Virus record (IMG/VR): IMGVR_UViG_3300003873_000622
Coordinates: 1 to 20,853 of that record
Length of the DNA: 20,853 nt
Source of the DNA: a virus
Strand: one strand, 5' to 3'
In this document: piece by piece, positions 3,724 through 19,071 of the stretch
Position numbering within the stretch: position 1 is the first letter of the stretch
Layout: every line of letters starts with the position of its first letter
Notes under the pieces: model-generated
The model's input: only the letters and a program-made list of their open reading frames with translations
What the model was told of the DNA's origin: nothing
Database searches by the model: none
Position numbers and translations under genes: made by a program

Positions 3724-3750
3724 AAAGCCGCCATGTTTCAGGCGGTTTTT
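3724..3750 (+). terminator. rho-independent terminator
   Basis: Stem GCCGCC / GGCGGT around ATGTTTCA, extended by A-T pairs and followed by TTTTTTG. It points rightward and would stop transcripts from element E2 before the methyltransferase promoter. Confidence 0.7.
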
Positions 3751-3767
3751 TGTTTGGATAAGAGAAT

Positions 3768-3782
3768 GATACAATATGAATC
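3768..3782. promoter_or_regulatory. repressor operator OM1 upstream of the methyltransferase
   Basis: GATACAATATGAATC fits the 15-bp pattern GATWC-N5-GWATC found three times beside the S24 repressor gene. Its centre is about 62 bp before the expected start of the methyltransferase transcript. Confidence 0.65.
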
Positions 3783-3802
3783 TTTAAAGCAATATTAAAA
3801 AG

Positions 3803-3817
3803 GATACAAAAAGAATC
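3803..3817. promoter_or_regulatory. repressor operator OM2, inside the methyltransferase promoter
   Basis: GATACAAAAAGAATC, same consensus. It lies 7 bp before the TATAAT box, in the -35/-10 spacer, where bound repressor would block RNA polymerase. Confidence 0.7.
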
Positions 3818-3824
3818 TTTATGC

Positions 3825-3830
3825 TATAAT
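3825..3830 (+). promoter_or_regulatory. -10 box of the methyltransferase promoter
   Basis: TATGCTATAAT: an extended -10 with expected start near 3837, about 30 nt before the leader ORF. No good -35 is visible, which is usual for Campylobacterota. Confidence 0.6.
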
Positions 3831-3866
3831 TCTTATATAAAAACTAAAAGGTATGAGGATTGCTTT

Positions 3867-3935
3867 ATGAAAATTATGAAAAATAACTATGCCGTTGAAT
3901 ATAATGACGGTACTAAAATTGATTGGTGTAAATGA
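3867..3935 (+). CDS. 22-aa leader ORF of the methyltransferase
   Basis: ATG 3867-3869 follows GAGGAT at 7 nt, a better SD than the methyltransferase itself has. The peptide begins MKIMKNNYAVEYNDG and ends DWCK. Its TGA (3933-3935) is one base before the methyltransferase ATG (3937), so the methyltransferase is probably translated by re-initiation. It could set methyltransferase level, or be a small protein in its own right. Confidence 0.5.
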   Translation: MKIMKNNYAVEYNDGTKIDWCK

Positions 3936-3936
3936 T

Positions 3937-4962
3937 ATGAAAACGATTAAGGCGGTAGATTTCTTTTGTGGTGCAGGTGGTTTGACACATGGGCTTAAAC
4001 TTGCAGGTATAGAAGTTTTTGCCGGTGTGGATGTAGATGAATCATGCAAAGAGACTTATGAGTACAACAACTCTGCAGAGTTCATAAACAAGAGTATAGT
4101 AAAGATAACAGCAAAAGAGGTAAAAGATATATTTGCTAAACACAGCACAAAATCTGACTACACTATGATTGCAGGATGTGCCCCATGCCAGCCTTACAGT
4201 GCGATGAATACAAGAAAAAGAAAAGATGATGATAGAAAGACATTACTTGATGAGTTTAGACGCATTATAAAAGGTGTTCATCCACATTTTGTTCTTATGG
4301 AGAATGTCAGTGGGCTAAATTTAGACAATCCATACTTTGTAAAATTTTTAGATATGTTACACTCAAAAGGTTACAGGTATGAGTATAAAGTTTTAAATGC
4401 AAAAAATTTTTCGGTTGCCCAAAATAGAAAAAGACTATTTCTTATCGCTACACGATTAAAAAGAGTTAAGTTGTCATTTGAAAATATAGTTGAGAAAAAC
4501 AGTATTACACTCAAAGATGTCATTTATGAGCTTGAGCCTATCGCTCATAACAAACCATCAAGATATGATCCACTACACAAATCAAAAGTACTTAATGAAA
4601 TAAATCTTAAACGCATAAAAGCTACTCCAAAAAATGGAGGTTTAAGAAGTGCCTGGAGTGAAGAGTTGAAACTACCATGCCATAGAAAAAAAGAGGTTTT
4701 TTTAGATAACTACGGAAGACTTTCGTGGGATAAGCTAAGCTCTACCATAACTACAAAGTTTCACGAATACTACAGTGGAAGATTCGGACATCCTGAGCAA
4801 GACAGAGCTTTATCGCTTAGAGAGGGTGCCCTTATACAATCCTTCCCAAAAAGCTACAAGTTTATAGGAAAAGAAAATCAGATAGCAAGACAAATAGGAA
4901 ATGCAGTACCCGTAAACCTTGCTCGTGCAGTAGCTGAGACTTTTGTTTTAGCTACTGCTTAG
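3937..4962 (+). CDS. DNA (cytosine-5-)-methyltransferase
   Basis: Transfers methyl from S-adenosylmethionine to C5 of cytosine in a specific site. Starting at ATG 3937 the protein has 341 aa with all core motifs in order: I (DFFCGAGG, 8-15), IV with the catalytic Cys84 (GCAPCQPYS), VI (ENV, 122-124), VIII (AQNRKRLFLI, 161-170), a target-recognition stretch ending RLSWDKLSSTITT, IX (HPEQDRALSLREGALIQSFP) and X (QIGNAVPV). An in-frame ATG at 3889 would add 16 residues before motif I, but the SD and the leader ORF favour 3937. It converges on the GHKL-nuclease gene with a 15-nt overlap, so they form a restriction-modification-like pair. Two phage repressor operators sit at its promoter. Target site not predictable from sequence. 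Confidence 0.93.
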   Translation: MKTIKAVDFFCGAGGLTHGLKLAGIEVFAGVDVDESCKETYEYNNSAEFINKSIVKITAKEVKDIFAKHSTKSDYTMIAGCAPCQPYSAMNTRKRKDDDRKTLLDEFRRIIKGVHPHFVLMENVSGLNLDNPYFVKFLDMLHSKGYRYEYKVLNAKNFSVAQNRKRLFLIATRLKRVKLSFENIVEKNSITLKDVIYELEPIAHNKPSRYDPLHKSKVLNEINLKRIKATPKNGGLRSAWSEELKLPCHRKKEVFLDNYGRLSWDKLSSTITTKFHEYYSGRFGHPEQDRALSLREGALIQSFPKSYKFIGKENQIARQIGNAVPVNLARAVAETFVLATA

Positions 4963-6840
4963 AGAATTTGTTTTTTCATAGATATCTATGAACTCTTTGT
5001 GGTATTCTTTTGCTTGCTCTAACATCATGTTGTAGCTGAGAAAATACATATTGTCTTTTTTAAGACCATCTAATCGTGTTCTTACATACTTGTCATTTTT
5101 AAGTTCTTTACCTACTATATAGGTTTTTACATACTTAAACTTACTTCTATCGGAATTGTTTTCATCAAGATTTGCCTGTATAAAGACATGATAATCTTGC
5201 ATCTGATCTAACTCCTCTTTGCCTATCTTTTTTTGTGAACGCTTAATCTCTATAATATAAAGAGTATCTCCAAATCCTCTACACATAAAATCGAGTCTTC
5301 TACTATCAATATCTAGAGCACTGTCATCAAACTCATCATTAAGTAGTTTTTCGTAAGTGTCTTCTTCGCTAAAAGAGGCTATTCGAGGTTCTAGTATCCA
5401 TGGAAACTTGCTTAAAAAACTATGCATAGTCTCTACACTTTTTTTGGCAACTTCAAGTGTATTGTTTTTTATGAGTGTTTCAAACTTCTGTATCGTCTCA
5501 ACTCTTCCAAGTGAGAGTCTGTAATGCTCTTTTGCTTCTATAACTTCCCAATCTTTTAATAGTTTTAAAAGTTCTTCAGACTCTACGTCTTCATCCATAC
5601 TGCTTGCAAAATCTTGAAATACCTGAAACTCAAAAGCTCCTTCTACATACCCTAAGAGGTCTTTTGTTTTTGAAACTTCAAGATTTGAAGATATAACTAT
5701 GTCTGTTATTTTTTTTGCTAGCTTTTTATCTTGAGAACTCTGAAGAGAGCTTTCGTACCAAGATGTATTGATTCCGTATGTTCCTTTTAGTTCACTCTCT
5801 CTAGCTTCTACTCTTAACTCTCTCCACTTTTTACCAACTTTGTTGATGATTTCGTTAAGATGGCTTCTAAGTATAGTTGCTTCATTGTTATCCCAGATGA
5901 GAGAGTTTCTTGCAGTAGATATATAATCTTGTGAATTGTCTTCATCCATATAGTCTATCTGTATCGATCCGCTCATATAGGAAAAAGCGTGAGAATTGCT
6001 AAGTTTTACATCATAAAATTCTGGGTTGTTGGCTAATTTTCCACGTACATAAAGAGTGATACCTTTGAAAACTTCTTTTATAGTATCGTGTGTTGTTATG
6101 ATACGACCTGTGATGCTTTTTTGCTCAAAGTAAGTTTTTGTGCTTGCATGAACACCTAATGATTCCAGATCATCTGGAATATTCCATGCAAACTGCATAT
6201 TTTCTTCTATGAGGTTTGTTTTGTTTTGGAGTGTAAGTTCTGTTTTTGTTGTCCCATCAGTAATAGTACATAAAAAATTTTCATCAAAGATATTTAGCCT
6301 TGTAAGAAGTGAGTTTGCAGTAGATTTTATGTTGACTTGTGTTGTTCTTGTAAGGTCTTTCAAAATAATTTTAGTGTAGGGAGCCACATCTGTCTCTTTG
6401 TTGTCCATATCTGCTTTAAGTGTTAGTGGTTTATCATCTGTACGATTTATAAGTGTGTCATAGTTCATGGTAAATGCGTTTATTTTTCCACCTTTACAAC
6501 TCTCGACATATATCTCTTTGCATATGCCAAAAACTGAGAGTTTTCCTATTCCTTTTTTCCCAGTTACTTTTCTTTTATATTTTTGTGAAGTTGAACCTTC
6601 TGTTTTTCGCTTGTTTCTTCCTATATTTAAAAAATCTTTGTTTAGTTCTTCTGCACTCATTCCATGCCCATCATCAAGTATTTCAATAGATTTGTTTTCT
6701 TGATCTACTGTTATGATGACATGTGATGCATCTGCATCGTAAGAATTTGTGATGAGTTCTGCAAGGACAGGTGGCAAAGTACTGTACATACTTAATCCTA
6801 GATGTTTTATGACTATTGGGCTAAACTTTATTTCAAACAT
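4948..6840 (-). CDS. GHKL (MORC-like) ATPase fused to Shedu/DUF4263-like PD-(D/E)xK nuclease
   Basis: 630 aa. The N-terminal GHKL ATPase shows the N box (LAELITNSYDADAS, E28/N32/D35), the D-x-G-x-G motif (DDGHGMS, D57-G60) and the G-x-G-K-L-S lid motif (KKGIGKLS, 95-102). A transducer-like region follows (to about 340), then a helical linker. The C-terminus (about 470-600) has FPWIL (479-483), RLDF with D517, and IIEIK with E531/K533: the D...E-x-K core of a PD-(D/E)xK nuclease in the arrangement of DUF4263/Shedu proteins. MORC-like GHKL ATPases are known next to methyltransferases in bacterial restriction systems. I infer an ATP-gated endonuclease paired with the convergent C5 methyltransferase. 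SD GGAGAA 8 nt before ATG, own promoter. Length and all key residues are intact, so it is probably active. Confidence 0.8.
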   Translation of the reverse strand: MFEIKFSPIVIKHLGLSMYSTLPPVLAELITNSYDADASHVIITVDQENKSIEILDDGHGMSAEELNKDFLNIGRNKRKTEGSTSQKYKRKVTGKKGIGKLSVFGICKEIYVESCKGGKINAFTMNYDTLINRTDDKPLTLKADMDNKETDVAPYTKIILKDLTRTTQVNIKSTANSLLTRLNIFDENFLCTITDGTTKTELTLQNKTNLIEENMQFAWNIPDDLESLGVHASTKTYFEQKSITGRIITTHDTIKEVFKGITLYVRGKLANNPEFYDVKLSNSHAFSYMSGSIQIDYMDEDNSQDYISTARNSLIWDNNEATILRSHLNEIINKVGKKWRELRVEARESELKGTYGINTSWYESSLQSSQDKKLAKKITDIVISSNLEVSKTKDLLGYVEGAFEFQVFQDFASSMDEDVESEELLKLLKDWEVIEAKEHYRLSLGRVETIQKFETLIKNNTLEVAKKSVETMHSFLSKFPWILEPRIASFSEEDTYEKLLNDEFDDSALDIDSRRLDFMCRGFGDTLYIIEIKRSQKKIGKEELDQMQDYHVFIQANLDENNSDRSKFKYVKTYIVGKELKNDKYVRTRLDGLKKDNMYFLSYNMMLEQAKEYHKEFIDIYEKTNSLSSS

Positions 6841-6875
6841 ACTATATTGTTCTCCAAAATTTTAAATACTTTATA

Positions 6876-6881
6876 ATTATA
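6876..6881 (-). promoter_or_regulatory. -10 box for the GHKL-nuclease gene
   Basis: On the minus strand CATTATAATTAT gives TATAAT, about 35 nt before the ATG, followed by a GGAGAA SD. No GATWC-N5-GWATC operator is seen near it, unlike the methyltransferase promoter. Confidence 0.5.
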
Positions 6882-6925
6882 ATGGGTTTAGTAGTGTAAA
6901 GTTCTGTAGTGTCAAGATATTGCAT

Positions 6926-7501
6926 CTACAAATCCGCAAGTATCTTGATGGCTCTTGCACACTTTACATCATCTTTTTCCCTTATAAGCGGCGTGTAGTT
7001 GCTGTTAAACGGCATAAGTGTTACAAGGTTTGTGTTTTCATCTACAAGATACTTCTTTATGCCGCTTTCGCCATCTATGGTGGTGTAGTGGACTATGTCA
7101 CCGTTATTTATCTCCATCTCTCTGTCACAGATGATGATGTCGCCGTGCTTTATCTTTGGCAGCATACTATCTCCATCTGCTTTTACTGCATAGGCACCAT
7201 CGCGCGCATAGTTTTCTGGTACTGGTATATGTTCTATGGCATCAGGGTAGGCGATGTTTGGAACGCCGCAAGAGGCTACGCCTATAAGCGGGACTGTTTT
7301 TACTGCTATCTCTTCCCCGAAGAGTTCGCCTACATGTACATTTAATATTTCAGCAATTTTTTTTATTTGTTCATCATCAGGATGTCGCACACCATTTGAC
7401 CAATTTGTGACAGCACCTCTTGTTACTCCAATTTGTTCAGCAATGCTTTTTGCTGTAAACCCTTTTTTTTTCATAATTTTTTTAAAATTCTTAGCGAACA
7501 T
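6926..7501 (-). CDS. S24-family (LexA/CI-like) phage repressor
   Basis: 191 aa. N-terminal XRE helix-turn-helix (about 5-60: TAKSIAEQIGVTRGAVTNWSNG), then a peptidase S24 domain. Cleavage site C78-G79 (ASCGVPN; a Cys-Gly scissile bond as in UmuD), catalytic Ser112 (GDSMLP) and Lys149/150 (GIKKYL). It should bind operators as a dimer and cut itself when RecA is activated, making the prophage SOS-inducible. SD AAAGGA precedes ATG 7499-7501. It is divergent from the Cro-position gene, with three operators between. Two more operators upstream of the methyltransferase suggest it controls that gene as well. Confidence 0.9.
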   Translation of the reverse strand: MFAKNFKKIMKKKGFTAKSIAEQIGVTRGAVTNWSNGVRHPDDEQIKKIAEILNVHVGELFGEEIAVKTVPLIGVASCGVPNIAYPDAIEHIPVPENYARDGAYAVKADGDSMLPKIKHGDIIICDREMEINNGDIVHYTTIDGESGIKKYLVDENTNLVTLMPFNSNYTPLIREKDDVKCARAIKILADL

Positions 7502-7515
7502 ATAATTCCTTTATA

Positions 7516-7530
7516 GATACATATTGTATC
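7516..7530. promoter_or_regulatory. repressor operator O1
   Basis: GATACATATTGTATC: palindrome with a 3-bp centre. It overlaps the likely -10 (TACAAT on the minus strand) of the repressor gene, so it is placed for autoregulation. Confidence 0.75.
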
Positions 7531-7539
7531 AATAACTAA

Positions 7540-7554
7540 GATTCAAAAAGAATC
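7540..7554. promoter_or_regulatory. repressor operator O2
   Basis: GATTCAAAAAGAATC: perfect half-sites GATTC/GAATC. Centre is 24 bp from O1. Confidence 0.75.
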
Positions 7555-7573
7555 ACTTTAATGAACTATTAAG

Positions 7574-7588
7574 GATTCGTTATGTATC
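7574..7588. promoter_or_regulatory. repressor operator O3
   Basis: GATTCGTTATGTATC: fits GATWC-N5-GWATC. It overlaps the start codon (7582) of the Cro-position gene; centre is 34 bp from O2. Confidence 0.65.
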
Positions 7589-7815
7589 ATTCACTTATGG
7601 AACGAGAAAAATTAAAAAATATACTTCTTAAATACTATACAAACCCTGCGTCAAACCACATTTTAAGAGGTATTCGCAAACCATCGTATGAAAATATGTT
7701 GCATATGCACAAACAAGATAGTGTACCGTTTGAGATTTGGCAAGATATTAAATCCTATTTACAAGAGAATGATACGAATAAATCTACTACAAATACAAAT
7801 AAGGATGTAGCATAA
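7582..7815 (+). CDS. Cro-position small protein, 77 aa
   Basis: First gene of the rightward operon, divergent from the repressor. ATG 7582 follows AAGGA at 6 nt. The protein is Lys/Asn-rich, with possible helices (LMEREKLKNILLKYYT; PFEIWQDIKSYLQEND) and a polar Ser/Thr/Asn C-tail. A helix-turn-helix with alternation like ILRGIRKPSYENMLHMHKQDSVPFEIW is plausible for a Cro-like repressor but not diagnostic. Position and operator O3 over its start are the main evidence. Its TAA overlaps the next ATG (TAATG). Confidence 0.65.
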   Translation: MYHSLMEREKLKNILLKYYTNPASNHILRGIRKPSYENMLHMHKQDSVPFEIWQDIKSYLQENDTNKSTTNTNKDVA

Positions 7816-8312
7816 TGAAAGAGTACACACATAACAAAAGACCAAAAGAGCCAAAGTTATGCACTATGATCCGCAGGAGCATAACATTAAACCGTAAAGA
7901 ATTGGGACTTAGCTTTGAAGATGTTGCAAATGAACTCGGGCTGAGTGAGGGAACACTCTCAAACAAGTTAAAACCGGCAAAAGCTGAGAACGATATGACG
8001 CTCAGTGAGTTTATACACTTCATGGAACTTACAAATGACTTCTCAGCTTTTGAATACATTGCAGATCTGTTTGATAAAGTAGTTGTAGATAAAAGCATCG
8101 ATAAGGCAAATGTCTCAGACATCAATTTGCTTGTAGATATAGCAAATATGGAAAATTCTGATGTATTTCGTGTTGTTAAAGAGTCAATAGCTGACAAAGT
8201 GATAACACAAGAGGAACAAGAAGCGATACTCAAAGAGATCGAAGAGGCACAAAAAGCAAATGCACAGTTAAAAGACCTGGTGCTGCATTTGGCAACTCAA
8301 GAAGAGAAATAG
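7815..8312 (+). CDS. phage CII-family (Phage_CP76-like) regulator
   Basis: 165 aa. The segment VANELGLSEGTLSNKLKPAK followed by LTLSEFIHF-like MTLSEFIHFMELTNDFSAFE matches the Phage_CP76 family: HTH, 'KLNP' turn, then the 'leEa...tgd' helix (about 38-80). The C-terminal half is helical and ends in a Glu/Lys-rich stretch. CII-type proteins activate lysogeny promoters early after infection. Start overlaps the stop of the Cro-position gene. The 3' end overlaps the convergent minus-strand ORF at 8297 by 16 nt. Confidence 0.75.
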   Translation: MKEYTHNKRPKEPKLCTMIRRSITLNRKELGLSFEDVANELGLSEGTLSNKLKPAKAENDMTLSEFIHFMELTNDFSAFEYIADLFDKVVVDKSIDKANVSDINLLVDIANMENSDVFRVVKESIADKVITQEEQEAILKEIEEAQKANAQLKDLVLHLATQEEK

Positions 8313-12074: not shown

Positions 12075-12767
12075 ATGTTAGATCTTATTACTGCTGCTAG
12101 ATGTTTAAAAATGCTCGAGAATAAAGCTAGTATTAAATACTCGAAATCATACTTTTCACAAATGGTCAAAGATGGAAAAATTCCATATCACAATAAGCCT
12201 GATTCACCAAAAAAGTTTTTTAAATACGCAGAAGTGCTTAAAGCGATTGAAGATTCAAAGGATCCTACTCGTGATGCGCAGAGAATTGCCAATGAGCAGA
12301 AACGAAAAAAGGAGAGTAGCACACTTCTTGATATAGTCGGCACATATAGGTCTGTTGCAGATATGACACCTCAAGAGATAGAGATAGAAAAAAAGGCAGC
12401 ACAAAAACTTAAAGATGAAGCAGAAGCTGCTAAAAAAGAAGCATTGGCAGCAGGTGCAAGTGAAGATGAGGATATTTGGGAGTCAAGTATTCCAGGAGGT
12501 GTTACTCAAGCTGCTGCAAAAGCTGAAAAGGAATACTGGCTTGGAAGAAAAGCAGAGCTTGAGTTTAAAAAGATGAATGGAGAGCTGATAGGAATTGAAG
12601 AGGTTCAAAGAGAAGCCTTTGAGATGGCAAAGGGTGTTCGTGATGCATTCTTGGCACTTCCTGCTCGTCTTGCGCCTATTTTAGCAGCAGATAGTGATCA
12701 GTTTTCTATTCAAAATAAGCTTACTTTGGAAATTAACAGTGCTTTGGAGAGTTTGAGCCATGAGTAA
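12075..12767 (+). CDS. terminase small subunit-like protein
   Basis: 230 aa. The N-terminus (about 5-60) looks like a DNA-binding module followed by a basic stretch (YSKSYFSQMVKDGKIPYH...FFKYAEVLKAIE). The middle (about 70-145) is charged and coiled, rich in Ala/Lys/Glu. The C-terminus has ELEFKKMNGELIGIEEV and VRDAFLALPARLAPILA, a pattern common in Nu1/DUF1441-type small terminase subunits. It should recognise the packaging site and recruit the large subunit. The start codon of the large subunit overlaps its end by 8 nt. Confidence 0.75.
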   Translation: MLDLITAARCLKMLENKASIKYSKSYFSQMVKDGKIPYHNKPDSPKKFFKYAEVLKAIEDSKDPTRDAQRIANEQKRKKESSTLLDIVGTYRSVADMTPQEIEIEKKAAQKLKDEAEAAKKEALAAGASEDEDIWESSIPGGVTQAAAKAEKEYWLGRKAELEFKKMNGELIGIEEVQREAFEMAKGVRDAFLALPARLAPILAADSDQFSIQNKLTLEINSALESLSHE

Positions 12768-15700
12768 AATGCCTTATATAAGTGCTTTTAAGTTTGGGAT
12801 TAAACCTGATCCTTTGATGAGTGTGGCTGAGTGGTCGGATAAAAAAAGGATGCTTCCATCAAAAAGTAGTGCAGAACCTGGAAGATGGAGAACGAGCAGA
12901 ACACCTTATCTTAAAGAAATAATGGAGGCTCTTTCTCCACAAAGTCCTGTCCAGGAAGTGAAAGTTATAAAAGCGACTCAGCTTGGATTTTGTCTTAAAT
13001 TAGATACAAAAATACCAACCGCAAAAGATTTTGTCACTATGAGTGAGTTGCAGGTAGGTGATGTTGTGTTTGACGAGAACGGATTGGAATGTAATATTAC
13101 ATACAAATCACCTATTTATACAAATCATAAGTGCTTTCGTATTACATTTGATGACGGAGTTAGCGTTATTGCAGATGCAGATCACAAGTGGAAAGTAAAT
13201 CGTTTCAGTGATACGCAGTTTTCAAAAAGATTTCAAAAAAGTATAGTTACAACAACGCAAGCTATGTTTGCAGATTTTGAATATAAAGGAAAAAAACGCT
13301 ATTCGATCAACAATGCAAAAGCTGTAGTAATGCCTAAGGCAGATCTACCGGTTGACCCTTATTTCCTTGGTATATGGCTTGGTGATGGAAAACAAAAAGG
13401 AAATGAGATAGGTCTTTATGATGTCGATGCTCCATTTATACTTGAGAAGTTTGATGAAGCAAAAATACCTTATCGTGTGAAAAAGCGATTGGATCAGCAT
13501 CTTTGGGTAGTAAAATTTGGTACTGGTAATGGTGATATGTGTTTACGAGGTCACAGTCGAGTAAACAATGTGTACGCAGATGGTGGCTGTAAAACCTGCA
13601 AAAGGCAACAAAAACAAGGAAAATTAGACCCTATCTTGCCAAATAGTAAACTTTTCGAGATGCTTCAGGCTTTAAATGTGACAAAATGTAAACATATCCC
13701 AAAAGAGTATCTTTTTGCATCGATAGAACAGCGAATGGCGCTTTTACAGGGATTAATGGACACTAATGGATATATTGATGCAAAAAAAGGTCGATGTGGC
13801 TATGACAGTTCTAACAAAAGACTTGCAGATGATGTACGTATGCTTATTGAGTCGTTAGGATTTAAAGTCTTTCTCGAAATATCCACAAGAGATACAAATT
13901 ATGCGTCTCATAAAACGATATACAGGCTTCGTTTTAGAGCATATAAAGGTGATGCAGTCGCTACTCTTGAGAGAAAATTGTCAAAACTAAAAGAAAATAG
14001 CAGTAGAAGCTATGTGAGCTACAGAAGACGGATAGTTGATATTGCAGAAGTACCAAGCACTGCGGTGCAGTGTATAGAGGTTGATTCTCCTTCACATCTT
14101 TTTTTAGCTACTGAGCATTTTATACCGACACATAACACGGAACTGGCAAACAATGCGATTCTTTGTTATATGGATTTGTATCCGTGTCCGATACAGATGA
14201 TTATGCCGACAGAGAAACTCGCTTCTAAGCACTCCAAAGCGAAGCTCACGCCGTCTATCAAGTCTATTCCATCTGTGATGCGTAAAGTTAAAGATGCAAA
14301 AACAAAAGATGATGCCGGTGGGAGCTTTGAAAAAGAGTTTGACGGCGGGATGTTGTCACTTGGGTGGTCCAACTCTGCTGCATCGTTTGCATCGTTTTCT
14401 GCGAGATTAGTCATCCTTGATGATGTAGAGCGTTTTCCTGAAGATGTAGAGGGTGAGGGTAGTCCCGTTGACCTTGGGCGTAACCGTGCCGATGCATTTC
14501 CAAACAGAAAAATCTACATCAATTCTACTCCAAAAAATAAAAATGGAGTTATTGACAGAGAGTATCAGGACTCTGACCAGAGAGAATACAACATGCCTTG
14601 TCCTCATTGCTCAAAAATGATTACATTTAGTTTTAATGAGGATGATTTGCATTTTGTGTTTGAGTATGATGAAGAGAACTATGAGCTTTTAAGCGATGTT
14701 CGTTACAAGTGTGAACATTGCGGAGGGTTGATTGAGGAGTACCAAAAAACTCAAATGATGAGCGAGGAAGAGGGTGCGAAGTGGATCGCGAATAATCCAG
14801 GGCATCACCATCGAGGGTACAAGCTCAATAGCTTCTATGCGCCATTAGGCTGGGTAAGTTGGGTTCACATAGTGCGAGAGTACCTCAAAGCGAAAAAAGC
14901 CGAAATAAACGGTGATACTTCACTCATACGACGCATATACAATACACGCTTTGCACTTCCTTTTGAAGAGAAGTTCGAGAGTACTTCAAGTGATGACTTT
15001 ATGCTGCTTAAAAATGAGATTGCACCTGGTGTTGTTCCAAATGACACAGCAGCTCTTGTGATGGCAATAGATGTGCAGCTTGATCACTTTTGGTATAAGG
15101 TTGTAGCACTTCAATATGGAGCAGGTAAACATACGGTGAGATATGGTCGTGCTGAGAGCTGGGCAGAGCTTGAGGAGATCATGCGCATACATTACAGTGG
15201 TGAGAATGGAAGCATATATGCTGTAACTATGGCGGCAGTGGATTCTGGCTATAAAAGAGATGAAGTGTATGAGTTTTGTGCGATGAATTCGGATGTAGCA
15301 ATTCCTATCAAAGGTGCTAGTGGACGACCTGATGCCCCTTGGAAAGTTAGCAATGTAGAGCGAGATATCAATGGCCAGACTATAAAAACAGGGCTAAAAC
15401 TCTATGTGATAGATACAGAATACTTCAAAGATATGTTACATGCGCAGATAGAACGTTCCATACTGCTTAAAAAAGAGGGAAAAACTGGTGAGAATACCTT
15501 TAGTATGCATAGCGAGAGTGATGCCTTCTATGTAAAGCAGATGACCAGTGAACATAAACATTGTGATGTTAATCAAAAAACGGGAGCAGAAAAGTGGACC
15601 TGGATAAAAAATATAAGCAAAGCAGATAACCACTACTGGGATGATGGTGTTTATACGACATTTTTGGGTGAACTCCTTGGGATTCGCTTCTTGCAAAGAG

Positions 15701-15783
15701 AATCTATTGTGAAAAAAAAGCAAAAAAACAGACCTAAGCGAGTAAGAAACAGTGAATACGACGACTATATGAGTAACTTTTAA
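12760..15783 (+). CDS. terminase large subunit (GpA family) interrupted by an intein
   Basis: 1007 aa precursor. Removing residues 78-459 leaves a 625-residue terminase, the usual GpA length. The exteins join as ATQLGF/TELANNA, the P-loop-equivalent motif of this family. The ATPase follows with a Walker B-like LVILDDVERFP; two Cys pairs (CPHC and CEHC) mark a zinc-binding insertion; the C-terminal nuclease shows VMAIDVQLDHFWYKV, AAVDSGY and NHYWDDGVY with acidic residues for metal binding. It packages phage DNA into the prohead and cuts it. The intein must splice before the ATPase can work. It starts in the small subunit gene (8-nt overlap). Confidence 0.92.
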   Translation: MSKMPYISAFKFGIKPDPLMSVAEWSDKKRMLPSKSSAEPGRWRTSRTPYLKEIMEALSPQSPVQEVKVIKATQLGFCLKLDTKIPTAKDFVTMSELQVGDVVFDENGLECNITYKSPIYTNHKCFRITFDDGVSVIADADHKWKVNRFSDTQFSKRFQKSIVTTTQAMFADFEYKGKKRYSINNAKAVVMPKADLPVDPYFLGIWLGDGKQKGNEIGLYDVDAPFILEKFDEAKIPYRVKKRLDQHLWVVKFGTGNGDMCLRGHSRVNNVYADGGCKTCKRQQKQGKLDPILPNSKLFEMLQALNVTKCKHIPKEYLFASIEQRMALLQGLMDTNGYIDAKKGRCGYDSSNKRLADDVRMLIESLGFKVFLEISTRDTNYASHKTIYRLRFRAYKGDAVATLERKLSKLKENSSRSYVSYRRRIVDIAEVPSTAVQCIEVDSPSHLFLATEHFIPTHNTELANNAILCYMDLYPCPIQMIMPTEKLASKHSKAKLTPSIKSIPSVMRKVKDAKTKDDAGGSFEKEFDGGMLSLGWSNSAASFASFSARLVILDDVERFPEDVEGEGSPVDLGRNRADAFPNRKIYINSTPKNKNGVIDREYQDSDQREYNMPCPHCSKMITFSFNEDDLHFVFEYDEENYELLSDVRYKCEHCGGLIEEYQKTQMMSEEEGAKWIANNPGHHHRGYKLNSFYAPLGWVSWVHIVREYLKAKKAEINGDTSLIRRIYNTRFALPFEEKFESTSSDDFMLLKNEIAPGVVPNDTAALVMAIDVQLDHFWYKVVALQYGAGKHTVRYGRAESWAELEEIMRIHYSGENGSIYAVTMAAVDSGYKRDEVYEFCAMNSDVAIPIKGASGRPDAPWKVSNVERDINGQTIKTGLKLYVIDTEYFKDMLHAQIERSILLKKEGKTGENTFSMHSESDAFYVKQMTSEHKHCDVNQKTGAEKWTWIKNISKADNHYWDDGVYTTFLGELLGIRFLQRESIVKKKQKNRPKRVRNSEYDDYMSNF
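12991..14136 (+). other. intein with LAGLIDADG homing endonuclease in the terminase
   Basis: 382 aa, Cys78 to Asn459. N-terminal splice block: CLKLDTKIPTAKDF...LQVGDVVFDENG. Block B: SVIADADHKWKV (His142). Two LAGLIDADG-type motifs: YFLGIWLGDG (201-210) and LLQGLMDTNGYID (328-340), each with an acidic residue. Between them is a possible zinc knuckle, C261-x3-H265 and C277-x2-C280. C-terminal blocks: CIEVDSPSHLFLATEHFIPTHN followed by Thr460 as the +1 nucleophile. All splice residues are present, so both splicing and homing appear intact. Inserted at the most conserved site of the terminase, as inteins usually are. Confidence 0.92.
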
Positions 15784-16030: not shown

Positions 16031-16150
16031 CAAGAAGTTAGCTTCTTCTGGTGTAAAACCATCGGAGTTCGTTTCGGACGTCACGCTAGGGATTGCTTAG
16101 GCAAGGCATTAGCCAACACCCGTAAAATGCAGTAGTTTTTGGTCTACTGC
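16031..16150 (+). ncRNA. structured small RNA, possibly C4-like antisense RNA
   Basis: Follows a near-consensus promoter and has no ORF. Elements: hairpin AAGAAG-TTAG-CTTCTT (16032-16047); closing stem GGTGT (16050-16054) with ACACC (16116-16120); inside it TTGC-TTAG-GCAA (16093-16104) and GGC-ATTA-GCC (16105-16114); and 3' hairpin GCAGTAG/CTACTGC (16129-16150). This is a branched fold with a TTAG loop twice. C4 RNAs of phages P1/P7 lie near ant genes and control antirepressor synthesis, and an AntA/AntB gene is 2.2 kb downstream. The C4 assignment is inference; the promoter and stems are seen. Confidence 0.5.
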
Positions 16151-16551
16151 TCTTCAACAAATATCGTTTTTAACTCCAACCTTTTTTTGATATGTATCTT
16201 TAATTTTACAAGTTTCACACTTTTTGTGTCGTATTTTTTATAAAATTCTATGAAAATCAGCGATGCTCCTGTCTTTTTATCGCGTGTAATACTCTTTTTT
16301 ACTGTATGAAAGTGCTGTATAATCTCAGGAATTTCACAGATAAACTCCACATCATCAGGGTGTCGGCGTTTTACATGACGGATCTCATTGCTTTTGATGA
16401 TGCAGGTGTACCCGGCCATATCAAAGTGAAGTATTCCCTTTACCCTTCGCACGGTCTCATGTGGTATCTCAAAGCAAAGTTCTTTTTTGAACTGTGAATC
16501 TTCCAAAGAGTTTTTTATATGCTCACAGATGAGCTCTTTGAGTGTACTCAC
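16144..16551 (-). CDS. PBECR/barnase-EndoU-like RNase candidate (phage toxin-type)
   Basis: 135 aa. A central segment, NEIRHVKRRHPDD followed by IPEIIQHFHTVKKSITRD and later VKLVKLKIHIKKRLELKTIF, has the H-x-x-KRH / beta-strand / 'L..T.F' layout of the phage-barnase-EndoU-colicin-RelE-like nucleases (PBECR), which cleave RNA. His and basic residues likely form the active site. It starts at GTG inside the end of the BRCT gene (GTGA overlap, SD GAGGAG). PBECR domains are usually fused to phage morphogenesis proteins; a stand-alone one in a coupled operon with a regulator is less usual. The family call is by eye. Confidence 0.5.
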   Translation of the reverse strand: MSTLKELICEHIKNSLEDSQFKKELCFEIPHETVRRVKGILHFDMAGYTCIIKSNEIRHVKRRHPDDVEFICEIPEIIQHFHTVKKSITRDKKTGASLIFIEFYKKYDTKSVKLVKLKIHIKKRLELKTIFVEEQ

Positions 16552-17402
16552 TCCTCCTCATCCTGTTTGCTTGCCATCTCTTTAAGTTCTATGCAGTTTT
16601 TTATCTTGTTTTTTTCGTCTAAAATTGTATCAATAATTTTCTGAACATCCTTTGTCATATAACAACCAACCCAATTAACAGCATAGTCGTAATCTTTTTG
16701 CAGTCTGTTTAATTTCCCTTTTGTTGTTTTTAGCTTATTGACACTTTCAATCCTACCTTTTGCAAGCATATTGACACTATTTAAAATCATAGAATGAATT
16801 TTTAGTACTATTTCATCTAAATGTTGTTCTTGTTGCTGTTTTGGCAGCATATCGTAGAGGTATCTTACAAATTGTACATAATCATGATAATAAAGTACAC
16901 CATGAAGTGACAATATATGCAGTATCTCTTTGAATGGATCATCCGTTTGGAAGTGTTTTGATTTTACTTCTTTACCATAATCATCTATCAATATACCACT
17001 TGATGGCTTAATGGGATTCTTTTCTTCTTTTAGGAAACACTCTTTTAAAGAGTCTATGAAATTTTCTTCTTTATCCTCTACTGTTTTATCCAAAGATTTT
17101 ATAAAGGACTGCTCATGAACTATTTTTAGTTCTAAAAAATCTTTCTCTTTTTTGATTTTTAGGGCTTCTTCTATCTTATTGCCATAATTCCCATGTTTCC
17201 ACCCTTCTGAAGCAACCTCACCGACAATCAAATAATTTATATTGCCAGATAATCTACTTTTTATAATTCCACCGCGTTGTATAATTATATTTTTAACTTG
17301 ACCTCTACTACCAATGGTAAATGTCCCTGTCAATACAAACGAACGACCTTGAAAGTCTATAGAACTAACATCATCAAATATGTCATCTTTTGTAAAAATC
17401 AT
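16548..17402 (-). CDS. BRCT-domain protein
   Basis: 284 aa. Residues about 15-105 form a BRCT domain as in NAD-dependent DNA ligase: FVLTGTF, QVKNIIIQRGGIIKSRLSG with the conserved Gly-Gly, NYLIVGE, then GNKIEEALKIKKEKDFLELKIVHEQSF. The rest is a charged region and a helical C-terminal domain (about 160-284) without a recognised family, ending IKNCIELKEMASKQ. BRCT domains bind DNA ends or phosphopeptides; alone they are not enzymes. It is coupled to the 41-aa gene before it (TAATG) and to the RNase after it. Its last 12 residues nearly repeat in the 41-aa protein because of a 35-bp direct repeat. Confidence 0.75.
   Translation of the reverse strand: MIFTKDDIFDDVSSIDFQGRSFVLTGTFTIGSRGQVKNIIIQRGGIIKSRLSGNINYLIVGEVASEGWKHGNYGNKIEEALKIKKEKDFLELKIVHEQSFIKSLDKTVEDKEENFIDSLKECFLKEEKNPIKPSSGILIDDYGKEVKSKHFQTDDPFKEILHILSLHGVLYYHDYVQFVRYLYDMLPKQQQEQHLDEIVLKIHSMILNSVNMLAKGRIESVNKLKTTKGKLNRLQKDYDYAVNWVGCYMTKDVQKIIDTILDEKNKIKNCIELKEMASKQDEEE
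16571..16605. repeat. 35-bp direct repeat, copy 1
   Basis: Identical to 17428-17462 over 35 bases, beginning TTGCCATCTCTTTAAG. Codes for the KNCIELKEMA segment at the BRCT protein C-terminus. Confidence 0.85.
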
Positions 17403-18298: not shown

Positions 18299-18331
18299 TT
18301 GTATTTTACCATAAATAATAAGGAAATACAA
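18299..18331 (+). promoter_or_regulatory. RBS-sequestering hairpin of the antirepressor
   Basis: TTGTATTT (18299-18306) pairs perfectly with AAATACAA (18324-18331). The right arm ends on the first base of the ATG and the AAGG SD is in the loop next to it. The fold would limit initiation at the antirepressor. Confidence 0.5.
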
Positions 18332-19071
18332 TGCAATCGTTAATAGAAATAAAAGTTACTACAATAGGTGCTGAAGAAGTGAATTCAGTTAATGCAAGAG
18401 ATATTCATAACTATCTTGGAGTGAAGACAAAATTTGCTGACTGGATTCAAAGAGCCATTAAAAAATATGACTTTGTTGAAGGCGAAGATTACCTAGTTCT
18501 CAAAAATGAGAAACAGGTCAATAATCAGATAAGAGTATCAAAAGAATACATAGTAACCCTAGACATGGCAAAAGAACTCTCCATGCTTGAGAATAATAAA
18601 AAAGGGAAAGAGACTAGAAAGTATTTTATTCAAATGGAGAAAGAGGCTGTTGCCAAACTCCAAGCCCCATCAGACTCAAATGCAGTGATGCTTGAGATGC
18701 TTAAGATGCAACAGCAGCTTATAGAGAACTCCCAAAAACAGACCGAGGCGGTTATAGAGCTTGTAAAGAGTATGCAACAAACACCACAGCTCACGCAAGA
18801 GCCACAAACGCAGTACCTCGACAGCCGTGACCGTAAAAAACTACGTGATGCCATTGGAGCAAAAGCCAAAGAGGTGGCAAAAGATTTGGGCGTTTCAGTC
18901 TCAACCATCAGTCCTGCCATTTGGATAGAGCTGAAAAACTTTTTTGATGTGGATGATTATCAGGACATATTAAAAAGCCAGCTTAAAGATGTTATGCACT
19001 TCGTGATGTTTTGGGAGCCACGCAAAGGTGCTTCTCAAAAAGAGCCTAAAATCGAAATGAATTTGGTTTAG
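18331..19071 (+). CDS. AntA/AntB-family antirepressor
   Basis: 246 aa. N-terminal AntA/AntB domain (about 18-105: VNARDIHNYLGVKTKFADWIQRAIKKYDFVEG then DYIV-type ...KEYIVTLDMAKELSMLENN and RKYFIQMEKE). A Gln-rich coiled linker follows (about 120-165), then a C-terminal DNA- or partner-binding domain (about 168-235; KKLRDAIGAKAKEVAKDLGV). It should inactivate a phage repressor and favour lytic growth. SD AAGG. Its end, EPKIEMNLV, matches the helicase C-terminus. Confidence 0.85.
   Translation: MQSLIEIKVTTIGAEEVNSVNARDIHNYLGVKTKFADWIQRAIKKYDFVEGEDYLVLKNEKQVNNQIRVSKEYIVTLDMAKELSMLENNKKGKETRKYFIQMEKEAVAKLQAPSDSNAVMLEMLKMQQQLIENSQKQTEAVIELVKSMQQTPQLTQEPQTQYLDSRDRKKLRDAIGAKAKEVAKDLGVSVSTISPAIWIELKNFFDVDDYQDILKSQLKDVMHFVMFWEPRKGASQKEPKIEMNLV

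Follow-up and report, generated by a model that had tools for sequence, protein, structure and literature searches.

The window analyzed here is the entire stretch of 20,853 nucleotides at positions 1 to 20,853 of the IMG/VR virus record IMGVR_UViG_3300003873_000622. It carries a putative restriction-modification (R-M) pair next to a predicted phage immunity repressor, and our analysis concerns this pair and the promoter that appears to drive half of it. A C5 cytosine DNA methyltransferase (MTase) gene (3937-4962, plus strand, 341 aa) runs towards a gene on the minus strand (4948-6840, 630 aa) whose predicted product, of the paraMORC3 / BbrUII-HgiDII-like kind, combines a GHKL ATPase with a C-terminal PD-(D/E)xK nuclease domain and is called the nuclease below. 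The two genes meet tail to tail with an overlap of 15 nt (4948-4962), in agreement with the original prediction. The gene for the repressor, an S24-peptidase (LexA/CI-type) protein, lies at 6926-7501 on the same strand as the nuclease gene. Beyond it, on the plus strand, follow a gene in the cro position (7597-7815; start set by homology with the related phage contig L015) and a CII-type phage regulator (Phage_CP76, 7815-8312).

A methyltransferase facing an ATPase-nuclease

The MTase matches PF00145 with an E-value of 1e-64, and its motifs DFFCGAGG, GCAPCQP, ENV, QNRKR and QIGNAVP are all intact, as had been claimed from the sequence before. Its open reading frame (ORF) is open from 3889; the start is most likely 3937, because the beginning MKTIKAVDFF is common to all close homologues. 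A 22-aa leader ORF (3867-3935, plus strand), which may be a chance occurrence, stops 1 nt before this start. A candidate repressor-independent MTase promoter, ATGAAA-18-TATAAT (3876-3905, plus strand), agrees with the consensus at 10 of 12 positions and is a consensus match only. PADLOC assigned both the MTase and the nuclease gene as Type II R-M components.

The N-terminus of the nuclease matches HATPase_c_3 at 2e-24 and contains the GHKL motifs E28/N32, D56xG58xG60, G94-K96-G97-x-G99 and T156, while the C-terminal motif reads R515xD517 ... E531xK533 ... Q546 ... Y550. Across 77 homologues, conservation is at least 90% for the GHKL residues, R515xD517, E531xK533 and Q546 and complete for Y550, so the earlier claim of an intact ATPase with a C-terminal nuclease core was well founded. 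The AlphaFold model of the full-length protein (predicted local distance difference test, pLDDT, 88) matches the ATPase modules of Hsp90 and MORC3. When the C-terminal domain is modelled by itself (pLDDT 87), the PDB entry ranking first is the DNA-bound E. coli SduA (8ps5; E 0.006, probability 0.97, TMq 0.46), with Nt.BspD6I close behind and B. cereus Shedu (8ti8) in fifth place. These matches, with E-values of 0.006-0.03 and template modelling (TM) scores of about 0.4-0.5, are weak in isolation and, at that strength, support a C-terminal fold of Shedu or restriction-endonuclease (RE) type. Searching the PDB with the sequence profile gave weak matches only (NucS, E 0.019; Shedu, 0.23). The nuclease assignment thus draws on motif and predicted fold together, and the conserved motif is the stronger evidence of the two. 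The protein had also been placed with the Shedu nuclease domain DUF4263. The structural match to SduA, weak as it is, would fit this placement, but the Pfam model SduA_C/DUF4263 leaves the window nuclease unmatched and hits only one of 11 relatives, at 5e-4.

A full-length sequence match is to the NCBIfam family NF050001 (BbrUII/HgiDII family restriction enzyme), over residues 6-625 of the nuclease with 298.5 bits. This score lies under the curated equivalog cut-off of 550; we therefore regard the protein as a relative of the family without assigned membership, and its target sequence cannot be assumed. M.HgiDII is a 5-methylcytosine (m5C) MTase for GTCGAC (PMC5867850). This site occurs zero times in the window, where two models expect 1.25 or 0.42; with a target of 6 bp, such a comparison says nothing about site avoidance.

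Searching viral and genome collections with the nuclease sequence by itself gave no matches, and alignments were needed to find its relatives. We sampled 80 viral and 80 genomic relatives and counted any C5 MTase within 500 bp. One was present in 75 of the 80 viral and 60 of the 80 genomic cases, with the MTase in convergent orientation in 36 and 16, respectively. MTase matches numbered 151 in 741 kb near the nuclease against 12 in 1064 kb farther out, an approximately 18-fold higher density. The two genes are therefore conserved side by side as in Type II-like R-M systems, and this adjacency and density argue that the pair is a genuine R-M-like module. The co-occurrence of the same pair elsewhere, proposed beforehand as a check, was thus found. 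The idea of a one-protein ATPase-nuclease working with its MTase as a restriction pair gains from this co-occurrence and from the Shedu-like fold match; it needed revision in that the family is already known. Judged by sequence, the protein pair is of a known kind and the proteins themselves are no surprise.

Chromosomes of Campylobacterota carry the nearest homologues of the pair (L230-L233), with 56-62% identity for the nuclease and 68-72% for the MTase. They are located at unrelated chromosomal places, and nuclease and MTase are kept together in all four of these full-length homologues. A further relative occurs in the phage contig L252 (7608-10661), where an MTase of 73% identity and a helix-turn-helix (HTH) regulator are inserted between the terminase and portal genes. 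The gene opposite this MTase encodes another GHKL protein (31% over 300 aa), which suggests an exchange of the nuclease half.

Operators and the slot between them

The window contains five copies of the palindrome GATWC-N5-GWATC, where 0.05 would be expected. Three copies fall into the repressor/cro interval on the plus strand, GATACATATTGTATC (7516-7530), GATTCAAAAAGAATC (7540-7554) and GATTCGTTATGTATC (7574-7588), with spacings of 24 and 34 bp. The other two lie at the MTase promoter, 35 bp apart: GATACAATATGAATC (3768-3782) and GATACAAAAAGAATC (3803-3817), immediately upstream of a -10 box. A weight matrix built from the three repressor-side sites only recovers just the two MTase-side sites, with 18.9-20.7 bits, the next best hit scoring 4.8. 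The scan of the window found no such operator at the nuclease promoter. Two repressor-type operators at the MTase promoter and none at that of the nuclease is what had been reported. A generic search for palindromes that MTase promoters have in common with other parts of the viral loci gave too much noise to be of use.

The distal, OL-like pair is part of a larger arrangement on the plus strand. A hairpin resembling an intrinsic terminator (3724-3749), which would insulate the promoter from rightward transcription, is followed by the conserved scaffold TTGTTTGGATAAGAGAAT (3750-3767), the two operators, and an extended -10 box TGCTATAAT (3822-3830) belonging to a predicted inward, repressor-controlled promoter, here named Pi.

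Through the repressor and the replication protein we found related phages, which share the replication and CII genes and, in L015 and L179, the terminase gene with the window but are without the R-M pair. The replication and terminase proteins of L015 and L179 are approximately 78-95% identical to those of the window. The five-operator plan recurs in L015, L179 and L183, with three sites by the repressor and two sites, 34-35 bp apart, at a distance of 1.1-3.7 kb. The three repressor/cro sites of L015 have the sequence RATACANTTNGTAYT, with a mismatch in one of them, and its distal pair (10759 and 10794, 35 bp apart) precedes an ORF of 139 aa running towards the repressor gene. L179 has three sites of type GRTAANNNTATTAYC and two more at 4659 and 4694, and L183 three of type TTAMCAAANNNNTAA and two at 5207 and 5241. 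The L183 pattern is looser and its site number alone is unremarkable, but in a matrix scan these two distal sites come out on top, well clear of the next. Operator letters vary among the window and its siblings while the geometry is constant, and as in lambda a single operator motif is present both in the repressor/cro region and at a second promoter.

The scaffold TTGTTTGGATAAGAGAAT, also denoted by TTGTTTGGATAAGA, is near-identical in L015, L179, L183 and L246. The distal arrangement keeps one order: hairpin (an equivalent precedes the scaffold in the siblings), TTGTTTGGATAAGAGAAT, operator, 19-20 nt, operator. At the -10 box position the window and L015 then both have TTTATGCTATAATTCT, and L246 comes close to it. 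This fifth phage, L246, has an operator pair of a further type and different cargo; its contig stops before the repressor region, and the plan of three plus two sites was scored in the window, L015, L179 and L183. Its slot (6469-8244) holds a gene with a SocA/Panacea antitoxin domain and a second gene of 228 aa, candidates for toxin-antitoxin-like cargo. The scaffold pattern matched 14 viral contigs, of which L015, L179, L183 and L246 are clear, L236 is doubtful and the rest are chance-like; among 397 Campylobacterota genomes it was found in none, and no integrated copy was located.

The similarity between the window and L015 stops just past the -10 box, and the R-M pair comes next. Since scaffold and geometry are conserved and the cargo varies, the distal site is best read as a conserved OL-like element with a predicted inward promoter. 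By these comparisons the DNA between it and the repressor gene is variable cargo, one instance of which is the R-M pair. An origin of the operators for the sake of the MTase was rejected, because siblings without the R-M pair have the same site. The earlier view of an MTase wired to the prophage repressor therefore stands as to the repressor-type operators at its promoter, but the wiring was not acquired by the MTase: it is an ancestral second operator site that the siblings have kept.

Several other genes of the window were noted. Left of the distal operators lies a gene (2165-2839) related to genes in L015 (11141-11764, minus strand) and L183 (3222-3842), and in several of these phages such a gene has this same position; by eye they are predicted to be of membrane type, and those of the window and L015 had no Pfam match. 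The gene for the terminase large subunit (GpA type, 12760-15783) contains an intein-like insert at approximately residues 78-397 with LAGLIDADG homing-endonuclease domains; it is uninterrupted in L015 and L179, and L176 has the insert. On the minus strand (16144-17402) a BRCT-domain gene (16548-17402) overlaps a gene for a PBECR3 Barnase/EndoU/RelE-like nuclease (16144-16551), possibly forming another cargo or conflict module; in L179 the match is confined to the final 26 residues of the PBECR3 gene product. An AntA/AntB-type antirepressor gene (18331-19071) lies far from the immunity region.

Comparison with known systems

The proteins of paraMORC3 systems combine a GHKL and S5-type ATPase with a C-terminal RE-fold D-ExK domain in DNA methylase or R-M neighbourhoods, as described in the part of the account by Iyer et al. 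(2008, PMC2292703) available to us. The window nuclease shares this architecture and the methylase neighbour. Its GHKL motifs are intact and an S5-type transducer domain is indicated by motif conservation and the model's matches to Hsp90 and MORC3; the C-terminal RE fold with E-D-ExK is indicated by the conserved R515xD517/E531xK533 and the weak RE-fold matches. Unlike what we propose for the window pair, the paraMORC3 systems are not linked to phage-repressor regulation in that part of the account. VcSduA of V. cholerae, a type I-D Shedu, is an anti-phage protein in which experiments showed ATPase and nuclease residues to be both required (2025, PMC12137116). It resembles the window nuclease in its N-terminal GHKL ATPase and C-terminal PD-(D/E)xK domain, and differs in that no MTase partner is mentioned for it and that Pfam SduA_C misses the window protein. 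Like the HgiDII/BbrUII R-M systems (NF050001), the window has a C5 MTase adjoining a one-polypeptide GHKL ATPase-nuclease; unlike them, its pair is convergent, phage-borne and apparently under a phage promoter, with a score of 298 against the cut-off of 550. The ParaMORC3/Dcm pair of Escherichia phage PhiR44_1 is likewise convergent and on a temperate (P2-like) phage, but identity is only 26% (nuclease) and 41% (MTase), and that pair sits between portal and replication genes and not by the repressor.

A second set of parallels concerns regulation. In the Kpn2I system the regulator C.Kpn2I represses the MTase promoter, and the restriction gene is regulator-independent (PMC6237814). The circuit proposed here has the same shape, with a phage immunity repressor in place of the dedicated controller (C) protein. 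R-M and prophage immunity regulation also cross where a C.Csp231I-type controller interferes with the repressor gene of the Rac prophage (PMC11014345), a case in which the R-M regulator disturbs the prophage, whereas in the window the prophage repressor is placed to control the R-M gene.

The immunity region of lambda has one repressor acting at two separated operator clusters, OL and OR, with the rex genes next to cI. The window likewise has two separated operator clusters with accessory genes between them. Unlike in lambda, its distal promoter points inward to the repressor and would drive cargo, and there are three plus two operators of other sequence.

The chromosomal relatives and L252 indicate what kind of control may have been replaced. 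In L230, L232 and L252 related HTH genes, assigned by eye from the sequence pattern (Pfam gave no match), lie divergent from the MTase gene. Between the two genes is an identical 21-nt promoter box, TATTAAAATAATACAACTTAT (L230, 6394; L252, 7960; L232, minus strand, 6796 in reverse-complement coordinates), a candidate target of this regulator family. Neither an HTH gene nor the 21-nt box lies beside the MTase in the window, so that a dedicated controller, for which HTH genes stand in L230, L232, L233 and L252, is missing there. The simplest reading is that the R-M cassette lost its own regulator and now uses a phage promoter.

A proposed role of the lysogeny switch as restriction-modification controller

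We consider it probable that the pair is a mobile Type II-like R-M cassette (HgiDII/BbrUII, paraMORC3, type I-D Shedu-like) carried as temperate-phage cargo under the lysogeny switch. Close relatives of the cassette occur in Campylobacterota, and its slot lies between the distal operator pair and the S24 repressor gene. More tentatively, and with slightly more doubt than conviction, we propose that the cassette lost its HTH regulator on inserting between the inward promoter and the repressor gene and that the phage immunity repressor replaced this controller, so that the lysogeny decision would act as a timer for methylating first and restricting later, and induction would boost the methylase that protects progeny DNA.

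In the reading that we consider probable, the repressor would bind the distal pair and silence the inward promoter now driving the MTase. The nuclease gene follows the repressor gene on the same strand after 85 nt, and no terminator-like site intervenes, from which we infer that it is transcribed at least partly with the repressor. A promoter of its own, as formerly suggested, may contribute, given a weak promoter-like site at 6900-6873, but co-expression with the repressor may occur as well. Upon infection of a naive cell, or after cleavage of the S24 repressor at induction, the inward promoter would fire and methylase would be made before nuclease, marking the DNA of the host and the phage copies just replicated. 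Once lysogeny is established, nuclease would be added and methylase would fall to what maintenance requires, made through leak or from the weak internal promoter at 3876-3905; convergent transcription could add mutual interference. An ATP-bound GHKL dimer would clamp DNA and license cleavage of superinfecting, unmethylated DNA by the PD-(D/E)xK domain. In this way the immunity repressor would do the job of the C protein in other R-M systems.

Several points weigh against this proposal. A lysogen with a strongly repressed MTase and an active nuclease would cut its own DNA, and the model therefore needs leak or a second promoter. The promoter at 3876-3905 is a consensus match, from a scan in which shuffled DNA gave more promoter-like sites, and a weak promoter-like site (6900-6873) lies between the repressor and nuclease genes. 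Among the relatives, the HTH gene of L233 lies upstream of the MTase in tandem and is unrelated in sequence to the other HTH genes, and in L231 the MTase gene has no HTH gene next to it. The window itself is a 20.9-kb fragment of uncultured origin. The puzzle raised by the original prediction, an MTase repressed in the lysogen, is partly explained by the cargo slot; basal methylase or a gated nuclease would account for the rest.

A gated nuclease would remove the problem of lysogen suicide, and it leads to the alternative that survives best, which we nevertheless regard as unlikely. Here the nuclease would be a methylation-independent Shedu-type defence, silent until an infection cue, and the MTase a lytic gene shielding phage DNA from host restriction, both sharing a slot and having separate targets. 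VcSduA, for which no MTase is mentioned, works with host viability preserved, and in L252 a nearly identical MTase (73%) faces a different nuclease (31% similar). Set against this are the strong MTase adjacency across bacteria, archaea and phages, the match, over the whole length of the protein, to a family whose namesakes are restriction enzymes with m5C partners, and the joint retention of nuclease and MTase in all four full-length Campylobacterota homologues. R-M pairs can also act as addiction modules, and the pair is cargo on a temperate phage; prophage loss would dilute the methylase before the nuclease and kill cured cells. That such prophage maintenance is the main effect seems quite improbable to us; sequence does not separate maintenance from defence, and both roles are compatible. 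The post hoc choice of the consensus and the AT-rich DNA speak for chance palindromes, or sites of another protein, upstream of the MTase. We give this next to no likelihood: five sites stand against 0.05 expected, a matrix trained on the other locus recovers the MTase-side sites, and L015, L179 and L183 show the plan of three plus two again, each with its own operator sequence.

The new part is, by our comparison, the wiring, an R-M pair in the slot between an OL-like promoter and the repressor. Phage-repressor control of R-M genes had no match in the literature by title or abstract in a search that was not exhaustive.

Dedicated controllers are the usual explanation of how a mobile R-M system can enter a new host without killing it. 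In the window the phage appears to supply R-M timing from its lysogeny switch, by way of a slot whose promoter would already be under repressor control. This slot is conserved across phages of differing repressor specificity and cargo, and it may hold further defence or conflict genes.

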